Source: Desulfobacteraceae bacterium (GTDB lineage: Bacteria > Desulfobacterota > Desulfobacteria > Desulfobacterales > JAABSP01). From it: a stretch of DNA of 46,340 nt. The notes under the pieces are model-generated. The model had not been told where the DNA came from, searched no databases, and saw nothing but the letters and a program-made list of their open reading frames with translations. Positions 27,884 to 46,340 of this stretch are shown here, one piece after another. How positions within the stretch are numbered: position 1 is the stretch's first letter; every line of letters begins with the position of its first letter. The stretch covers positions 1-46,340 of the forward strand of contig JAABTM010000006.1 in assembly GCA_011389855.1 (NCBI GenBank), given 5' to 3'. The position numbers and the translations under genes are program-made.

Positions 27884-27942
27884 TCCTCCAGGGGTTGAAA
27901 CCTTTGGCTATACGCCGTTGCCGCTTCGCGGCATTCAATTGA
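27884..27942. repeat. Dispersed hairpin repeat related to the element at 45.5 kb
   Basis: The stretch CAGGGGTTGAAACC...GGCTATACGCC...GCCGCTTCGCGGCATTCA aligns with 45505-45558 (GGGGTTGAAACCCC...GGCTGTATGCC...GCCGCTCCGCGGCATTCA). This copy lacks the outer inverted ends and its hairpins are less perfect, so it looks decayed. It fills the gap between phaJ and the GAF gene. Confidence 0.75.
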
Positions 27943-43854: not shown

Positions 43855-44204
43855 TAAGGTTAATCATTACCCAAAAAGAGGGATTATTTTTGTTTTAACG
43901 CCGGCGTTTTGTTGACATTCTCAGACGTGTCGATCATGCTTGATTTCCATTTGTCGTTCAACATTAACATTTGCGCAATACCCGACTTTGCCGGAAAAAG
44001 GCGACAGTCGGATAAAATCAATATTCTGCATGTTGACCGACAAAATCTTGCCAAGCAATGAAATGGAATGGATAATAAAATAAAGAGGTTGGCAGAAAAG
44101 AATTTGACGTATAGCGGTAAGTCTGGTTTGTGGGAGGAATGCTTTTATTTCGAGTGTTGGCCGGAAACCGTATAATCACTGGTTAGACGCACGAAAGGAA
44201 ACGA
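43855..44204 (+). promoter_or_regulatory. AT-rich gap with a TATAAT box and an attI/attC-type core site
   Basis: No reading frame of note is present; GC content drops sharply from the preceding gene. Near the right end are TATAAT (44171-44176) and GTTAGAC (44182-44188), which fits the GTTRRRY core at which integron cassettes join. I could not find the matching RYYYAAC and inverted arm of a full attC upstream, so this may be an attI-like or degenerate site. A ribosome site (AAAGGAA) precedes the next ATG. Confidence 0.45.
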
Positions 44205-45005
44205 ATGTCAGAGAAGAATCTGATCAAGTCCGAAATCCTTACAACACCTGATTACTACTTCGCAGCTCAGCAAAAGACCCTTGAAGCGAGAATTAAAGAA
44301 ATCAAGATTCCGCAGGAGGAGGAGGCGGGTATCGTAGCCGAAAAGGCTGCAAAGACAGTGCGTGATAAGCTGCTTGGCCTTTTTAAAGTGGGCGAGTTAA
44401 TCAGTGAGATATTAAACTGGAACGAATCTGTGGATGCAGACCTTCGAGAGGCAAAGAAGGAGTTTCTTCTCGCGCAGTACGTACAGGCCAGCGAGAATAA
44501 TGAAATAGCCATTAGCCAACTTCGCGATTTTCTGTCGAGCCCGCAGGGGAACACTTTATTCAACAAGATCGTACGCATTTTAGACGATTCGCCACCAGAT
44601 CTCGAACTTGCTAACCACCTTTCGAGCGCCCTGCAACATATCGTGAGCAGCGATTTCATTAAGCTATTCGAGGCTCACAGGTACGCTCTTGCGCAAATCG
44701 AGCGTCTCACGGCCCAAGCACTGACCATTCTCAGCGACTATCGAGCCTGGCCTCAGGTCAAGCTGGGCAGCTTTAATGCCAGCGGAAGCAGAGTCACCTC
44801 GGATTGGTTGATGGAATTCACAGGAACATATGCCCAAACGAAGCAAATTTCCGACACCGCCATGGAGAATCGAGTTCGCCACTCTGTGAACGAACTTATT
44901 TCTGCAAGGTTTATCGAAGCCCATCTTGTTGGCGATGGAGGGATTGCAAAGTGTGTCGTGACAGAGGTCGGCCAAACGTTGCTGCCGTATGTGAACAACG
45001 CCTAA
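44205..45005 (+). CDS. Cassette-borne hypothetical protein
   Basis: This 266-residue soluble protein is not recognised. It begins with a charged region (about residues 25-60, KTLEARIKEIKIPQEEE) and continues as mostly helices. The C-terminal 65 residues (MENRVRHSVNELISARFI, then VTEVGQTLLPYV) look like a winged-helix fold, as in some regulators. GC content is well below the neighbouring core genes. The stop codon lies inside the first bases of an attC-like site, and a GTTAGAC core lies just before the start, so the gene forms a typical integron cassette. Function unknown. Confidence 0.65.
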   Translation: MSEKNLIKSEILTTPDYYFAAQQKTLEARIKEIKIPQEEEAGIVAEKAAKTVRDKLLGLFKVGELISEILNWNESVDADLREAKKEFLLAQYVQASENNEIAISQLRDFLSSPQGNTLFNKIVRILDDSPPDLELANHLSSALQHIVSSDFIKLFEAHRYALAQIERLTAQALTILSDYRAWPQVKLGSFNASGSRVTSDWLMEFTGTYAQTKQISDTAMENRVRHSVNELISARFIEAHLVGDGGIAKCVVTEVGQTLLPYVNNA

Positions 45006-45055
45006 CCTGCGGGGGACGACAAAAAGCGCACCGCCGTTGACTTGCCGGTTTAGAC
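45000..45055 (+). other. attC-like recombination site 1
   Basis: It runs from GCCTAAC (RYYYAAC type) to GTTTAGAC, close to but not exactly GTTRRRY (one extra T). The inner part (GGGGGACGACAAAAAGCGC) is clearly related to site 2. It overlaps the stop of the preceding gene, as attC sites often do. Confidence 0.6.
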
Positions 45056-45068
45056 ATCAGGAGTCATT

Positions 45069-46054
45069 ATGGAAGAAAATCTTACACCAGTCGAACAACT
45101 CTCATACAGCACCGTAAGAATTGAAGCAGATTCAACTGATGGCGGTGTCAGCACAGGAACAGGTTTCTTTTTTAAGCTAAAAGAAAATGCAGATGGATCT
45201 CATATACCAGTTATAGTAACAAACAAGCATGTAGTTTCCAACACAACAAAGGGACGGTTTCAACTTACCTTAAAAGATGGTTCAGGAAAGCCATCTATAC
45301 GAGATCATTTCTCTTTCGAGCTTGATCAATTTGAAAAAAGGTGGATTCCTCATCCGGATGGTAGCACTGATCTGTGCGTAATGCCTATAGCGCCTCTTCT
45401 TAATTTGGCCAAAGAACAAAATAAAGAATTCTAGGCCTTGATCATCGTTTCGGCCATTCACCTGCCAGCGCCCCTTCAGGGCGCATTGGGGGGGGGTCGC
45501 TCCCTTCCTGGGGTTGAAACCCCAGGCTGTATGCCTTTGCCGCTCCGCGGCATTCATTGGCCGAAACGATGATCAAGACCGAATTCTATTTCATTTCTCT
45601 CACAAAAGAATTGTTACCAGCCGCCGCTGATTTTAATGATATGTTCGGTATGGATGATATAACTATGGTGGGTTATCCCATTGGGATTTGGGATAGTGTT
45701 CACAATTTGCCGGTCTTTCGAAGAGGCATTACCGCTTCAAATCCTAAAAATGATTGGAATGATAGAAAAGAATTTTTAATCGACTGCGCATGTTTTCCAG
45801 GCTCAAGCGGTTCTCCTGTTCTTCTGCTTAATATAGGTGGTTATTTTTCGAGAAAAGGAATGAATTTAGGCGGAATACGATTGAAATTGTTAGGGGTACT
45901 ATATGCGGGACCACAACACACAGCAACTGGTGAAATAGAAATTATAAATGTTCCTACAAAGCAGCAGCCTATTGCGGTTTCACGTATACCTAGTAATTTA
46001 GGCATAGTTATAAAATCTGAGAAACTCTTAGATTTTGAAAACAGCTTTTCTTAA
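45069..46054 (+). pseudogene. Trypsin-like serine protease gene split by a small element
   Basis: The two parts encode one trypsin-2-type protease. The first (45069-45434) has His54 in VIVTNKHVV and Asp101 in GSTDLCVM. The second has the nucleophile in FPGSSGSPVL (Ser195 of the repaired sequence). Removing the 147-bp element and one copy of GAATTCTA restores one frame of 276 residues with no other change (NKEFYFISL). Without it translation stops right after the left target copy. The complete protein would be cytoplasmic (no signal peptide), as are trypsin-like partners of several defence systems, though its role is unknown. It ends just before attC site 2. Confidence 0.85.
45434..45580. mobile_element. 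147-bp inverted-repeat element (MITE) with 8-bp target duplication
   Basis: The terminal inverted repeats are 22 bases with one mismatch (inner part CTTGATCATCGTTTCGGCC). The target GAATTCTA is present exactly on both sides (45426-45433 and 45581-45588). The interior has no gene but several hairpins (CCTGGGGTTGAAACCCCAGG, GCCGCTCCGCGGC). A decayed relative of its right half lies at 27884-27942. It would need a transposase supplied elsewhere. Confidence 0.92.
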
Positions 46055-46055
46055 T

Positions 46056-46117
46056 GTCTAACCTCGCTGGTGCAGGGGACGGCAAAAAGCGCGCCGCCCC
46101 TGACCAGCCCGTTAGGC
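46056..46117 (+). other. attC recombination site 2
   Basis: A 62-base site with GTCTAAC at the left and GTTAGGC at the right, fitting RYYYAAC and GTTRRRY. The arms GCTGGTGCAGGGGACGGC and GCCGCCCCTGACCAGC can pair with a few bulged bases, as folded attC sites do. Confidence 0.78.
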
Positions 46118-46150
46118 AAACAATGTCCATTGTTAGATTATAGGCAGAAA

Positions 46151-46340
46151 ATGAAGCAAACTGGGATACTTGACAACAAATCTCTGGGAAATGTTGTTTC
46201 CGAAATCAAAGGAAATATTTCTGCCGGATGCACTCTCTCCGTGGTTTCCGCTCTGTTTTCTCTTTACGCCTATGACGAGCTGAAAAAGGAGCTTTCAAAG
46301 GTTTCCAGGTTCAGGCTCCTTGTTCCAAGATATGGCGGCG
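46151..46340 (+). CDS. N-terminus of a probable PLD-type helicase (cut by window end)
   Basis: Sixty-three codons are visible. The LSVVSALFSLYAYDELKKEL, then SRFRLLVPRYGG pattern is like the phospholipase-D-like start of large SNF2/DEAD helicases found in defence islands, where it reads roughly SVVSAYFTIYAFxxLKxEL. The sequence runs out before any helicase motif, so this rests on the N-terminus alone. It starts 34 bases after attC site 2 and may be the next cassette or the first gene beyond the array. Confidence 0.5.
   Translation, partial: MKQTGILDNKSLGNVVSEIKGNISAGCTLSVVSALFSLYAYDELKKELSKVSRFRLLVPRYGG

Follow-up and report, generated by a model that had tools for sequence, protein, structure and literature searches.

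The window (the whole 46,340-nucleotide stretch analysed here, from a Desulfobacteraceae bacterium) carries in its last 2.2 kb, near the end of contig C248, a block of two genes followed by an attC site. The first gene (44205–45005, + strand) encodes a protein of 266 aa without a family match. The second, also on the + strand, is a trypsin-like protease gene present as two halves: an upstream half of 121 aa (45069–45434), which contains the His and Asp of the catalytic triad and ends in TAG at the junction, and a downstream half (45589–46054), which contains the Ser. Between the halves lies a 147 bp element (45434–45580, + strand), delimited by direct reading and a repeat search, that is very probably a non-autonomous MITE.

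The element is bounded by a left terminal inverted repeat, GGCCTTGATCATCGTTTCGGCCA (45434–45456, + strand), and a right one, GGTCTTGATCATCGTTTCGGCCA (45558–45580, − strand), both recovered by the repeat search and the end-core search. The first-pass annotation had described inverted ends of 22 bp; the ends themselves were confirmed, but the repeat search gave arms of 23 nt, with 22 of 23 positions paired (96 % complementary, one mismatch). Directly outside the arms, GAATTCTA occurs at 45426–45433 and again at 45581–45588, so that the exact 8 bp duplication claimed earlier for a 147 bp element was borne out by direct reading and by the repeat search. Three internal hairpins were found, GCGCCCCTTCAGGGCGC (45468–45484; direct reading and folding), CCTGGGGTT..AACCCCAGG (45507–45526; repeat search and folding) and TGCCGCTCCGCGGCA (45538–45552; direct reading and folding), and no transposase gene was present in the element as judged from its reading frames and by direct reading. 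The hairpin interior was also detected elsewhere without terminal repeats, at 27887–27937 of the window (84 % identity over 51 bases) and at several further places in the same genome; it may be an independent short repeat, perhaps captured by the MITE.

At the left junction, the TA that closes the duplication and the opening G of the element together make up the stop codon. Removal of the element and one copy of the duplication restores the protease frame, as had been proposed, leaving 831 bases, a number divisible by three. The catalytic H and D of the upstream half and the S of the downstream half were all conserved in six relatives, which agrees with the earlier reading of a complete triad across the two halves. 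Matches to Trypsin_2 were weak for each half and clear for the intact homologue (E 1.9e-10). With a stop at the junction, and with His and Asp set apart from the Ser, the gene can no longer yield a complete protease, and protease activity would thus have been lost through the insertion.

An uninterrupted version of the cassette, which the first-pass annotation had suggested should be sought in other strains, was found in genome G072, a member of the same order but of another family that is assembled as one contig of 3.9 Mb. When 96 genomes were searched with the downstream half of the protease, G072 was the only one to match besides the window's own, at 98 % protein identity. Its DNA aligned without gaps to the window at 44166–45433 (98.3 % identity) and 45581–46114 (98.9 %), covering both genes of the cassette, and at the insertion point it contained a single GAATTTTA, no element and a protease frame open over 297 aa. 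A wider search of 389 genomes of the class revealed six others with a match to the protease, none with a stop within the matched stretch, and the interruption is therefore not common to all homologues. The empty site supports the ancestral arrangement deduced earlier from the window, except perhaps at one letter of the target: a single silent base distinguishes G072 from the window at this point, and the target may originally have read GAATTTTA instead of GAATTCTA.

The high identity with G072 begins at a core site, GTTAGAC (44182–44188, + strand), at the start of the cassette and breaks off inside the GTTAGGC that closes the 3′ attC (46056–46117, + strand). This attC folds on the + strand (z −4.70), whereas a degenerate attC-like stretch separating the genes (45001–45056, + strand) does not (z 0.84 and 1.07), and both genes therefore probably travel as one unit. 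The ‘cassette’ gene of the first-pass annotation is accordingly better described as part of a two-gene unit with a degenerate internal attC; the core-site boundaries and the folding attC bear out the cassette itself. A single integron integrase above the family cut-off was identified in the window's genome, on contig C168, and none on C248, where the window stops just past the attC, or in G072. The 266 aa protein had no Pfam or PADLOC match. Its gene was present in only two of the 389 genomes, the window's and G072, next to the protease both times, and the protein is a possible partner of the protease. MITE-like structures reportedly flank and mobilize a class 1 integron, to judge from the title of a 2009 report by Gillings. 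The present case resembles that one in the association of MITEs with integrons and differs in that the MITE lies within a cassette gene instead of flanking the integron.

The intact protease of G072 matched the PADLOC profile PDC-S45 nearly end to end (profile positions 11–283 of 293, E 3e-115). PDC-S45 is termed a hypothetical defence system in a prophage paper that reports it (PMC12429752). The window differs from such a system in that its protease is broken and the 266 aa partner gene is without a PADLOC match. Given the match of the intact protein, the insertion probably killed a candidate phage-defence gene. In G072, the intact cassette lies upstream of genes for an OLD/AriA-like ATPase, an SduA (Shedu) protein and a type II/IIG-like methyltransferase (L130, 6290–13616), a neighbourhood that, by its gene content, is likely to be a defence island.

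The 147 bp element gave 87 matches in the window's genome, many of them to an end only. Nineteen matches, 82–100 % identical, spanned 115 or more of its 147 bases, and the closest sister copies were 99 and 98 % identical. With up to three mismatches allowed, the 19-base core of the end was found at 67 places, compared with none for the reversed control. Target duplications were compared among 19 distinct copies in which both ends were present, two of the 21 rows having been dropped as long pairings of tandemly repeated ends. The duplication was 8/8 in nine copies, 7/8 in four and lower in six, whereas 420 mismatched flank pairs gave 8/8 in none and 7/8 in 1.4 %; the two dropped rows stayed in this control and were the source of part of its 7/8 cases. 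The difference between the copies and the mismatched flanks shows repeated transposition with 8 bp duplications. The same ends also enclosed other interiors (e.g. L031, L035 and L038), and the copies therefore represent a set of MITEs, not a single one. Next to three copies, the right part of the copy is repeated in tandem together with the neighbouring flank (L041 on C299, 4908–5222; L040 on C108, 9543–9755; L014 on C68, 1499–1752); it is the right part every time, and slippage at hairpins is our guess as to its origin. In being short and gene-less, with inverted ends, a target duplication of constant length, many copies and internal hairpins, the element is like other bacterial MITEs; it is unlike them in that its ends belong to a transposase group listed by Pfam as DUF6399.

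The first-pass annotation had also suggested a search for a transposase with matching terminal repeats. The end sequence was present in 18 of the 96 genomes, including the window's own, and the seven genomes positive for DUF6399 were all among these 18 (probability by chance about 3e-6 in a hypergeometric calculation by hand, which ignores kinship). In genome G026, from the order to which the window's genome belongs, contig C333 carries a long open frame that matches DUF6399 (Pfam PF19936, E 2e-42) and is flanked on each side by the end sequence. This was the only locus with clear ends (L116) among the 19 found in the first PF19936 search when these were scanned at up to seven mismatches; L113 and L114 gave weak stray matches only in that scan. 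The ends of L114 and L118 are diverged forms of the element's repeat, and L109 has its own 25 bp inverted repeats with other ends and an 8 bp duplication, TAGTTTAC, read by eye from its flanks. Some of the DUF6399 loci of the first search are thus branches with other ends. The element on G026 contig C333 (L101, 893–2814) was the closest-looking full one; its right end is a MITE-like stretch and no matching duplication is present, which would fit a MITE having taken the place of the DUF6399 element's end or become attached to it.

A scan of genome contigs yielded 43 DUF6399 relatives with named hosts, of which 29 entered the end tests, 14 short or partial loci (L165, L166, L171 and L173–L183) being omitted. 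End-like sequences (at least 17 of 23 positions) were found on both sides in 16 of the 29 loci and on at least one side in 23; with 200 shuffled ends, the corresponding figures were 0 loci and a mean of 0.04. Exact 8 bp duplications lay outside the paired ends of L142, L143, L145, L146 and L152, and L144 had 7/8. Duplications of at least 7/8 at well-paired, end-like repeats were thus seen in only six of the 29 loci, chance duplications at unlike repeats (e.g. at L147, L168 and L170) not being counted; decay or diverged ends may account for the loci without them. A copy with an 8/8 duplication lies on a plasmid of Candidatus Thiodictyon syntrophicum, where its product is annotated only as ‘DUF6399 domain-containing protein’. 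DUF6399 proteins encoded between repeats of the kind sought were therefore recovered, several with exact 8 bp duplications, and on these grounds the element is assigned to the MITEs of an IS group with DUF6399 transposases. The empty site in G072, the sister copies with their own 8 bp duplications and the matching ends of the DUF6399 group together agree with the non-autonomous transposition proposed from the window alone, and that first interpretation was right in all its main points.

Residues D160, D214 and E485 (L145 numbering) were invariant in 18 DUF6399 sequences. An AlphaFold2 model of a DUF6399 protein (mean pLDDT 84.8) showed N-terminal helices and a five-strand core with strands at 153–185 and 206–233, in which strand 1 bears the first D and the second D comes directly after strand 4. 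A long helical stretch is inserted ahead of the E, and E485 falls within a low-confidence stretch (483–498) of the model. With this model as query, the top Foldseek match was the ISCth4 transposase (E 2.3e-3), ahead of retroviral integrase cores, and VIA gave Z about 12 over 120–150 residues for integrase cores and Z 11.8 over 258–259 residues for ISCth4. By predicted RNase H fold and by their D, D and E residues, the DUF6399 proteins are probably DDE transposases. The IS256 family (ISCth4) and hAT (Hermes) appear to share with the model an RNase H core into which helices are inserted ahead of the catalytic E. Both families have this layout and target duplications of about 8 bp; their end sequences differ from those of the DUF6399 elements. 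ISCth4 and the DUF6399 model shared only 6–8 % identity in the structural alignment, and the Pfam IS256 model was not among the matches of the DUF6399 protein at E up to 1. As the Foldseek and VIA scores are modest, kinship with IS256 is best treated as a lead and not as a classification. No NCBIfam model matched the DUF6399 transposase. Searching PDB sequences with the alignment produced three matches with E no higher than 1, none of them to a transposase core; in the best (E 0.011), a short chain matched the N-terminal region.

No DUF6399 gene was found in the window's own genome (569 contigs, 95 % complete) by searches with PF19936 and with the G026 protein, or in its congener G001 by PF19936, although the ends are present there. 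Since both genomes have the ends and no recognized DUF6399 gene, the helper may be absent or have been lost, have decayed or be unassembled, or may have operated while the cassette was in a previous host. The same absence from the assembled genome is what a MITE served by a different transposase sharing these ends, for example one unassembled here, would lead one to expect, but such a helper is improbable: the end similarity of the DUF6399 loci is far above that of shuffled controls, the DUF6399 elements share the 8 bp duplication length, and every DUF6399-positive genome is end-positive. More improbable still is an assembly artefact. A multicopy repeat in a genome of 569 contigs could be misjoined, but the flanks run on without loss into the same gene, gap-free against the empty site of G072, and an exact duplication is what transposition is expected to leave. 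That the insert is self-spliced or read through, with the protease still made, can be practically discounted despite the strong fold of the element (z −7.65), as inverted ends and hairpins explain the fold, a stop codon stands at the junction, copies with target duplications occur at unrelated sites, and a self-splicing or structured RNA was rejected for want of any Rfam match at the gathering threshold in 44000–46340.

With high confidence, therefore, the 147 bp stretch is regarded as a MITE whose ends are recognized by a DUF6399-group DDE transposase and which was probably moved in trans into the protease gene; on the evidence of the ends and duplications, the enzyme that moved this copy was probably a DUF6399 transposase. 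In the proposed course of events, a DUF6399 transposase would bind the 23 bp ends in trans, and the element would be taken from another site, by cutting or by copying, and inserted at a cut in the protease gene staggered by 8 bases. Filling of the gaps would then produce the two copies of GAATTCTA, with a stop codon arising at the left junction and the His-Asp part split from the Ser part.

The name DUF6399 was not found in the PMC papers searched, the end sequences of the element appeared there only in one unrelated bird paper, and searches on new IS families and on MITEs with Desulfobacter gave nothing on the element, nor was anything relevant among the papers listed for PF19936 with MITE. 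A broader proposal, held tentatively and at somewhat short of even confidence, is that DUF6399 proteins are the transposases of an IS group unrecognized in public annotation, with elements of about 1.8–1.9 kb, ends like GGCCTTGATCATCGTTTCGGCCA and 8 bp duplications, distributed in Desulfobacterales, purple sulfur bacteria, Chloroflexi and Planctomycetes, and that its MITEs outlive their helper and have here silenced a mobile candidate defence gene. The group may already be named in ISfinder.

The insertion of a MITE is in itself ordinary; the useful part is the link between DUF6399 and these ends. At this locus, a filled site and its empty counterpart can also be compared cleanly within a mobile cassette that probably carries a phage-defence candidate, which allows one to ask whether such genes are readily lost. 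For a family listed as being of ‘unknown function’, the results provide a probable function, the ends and the length of the target duplication, so that many small repeats in these genomes can be annotated.
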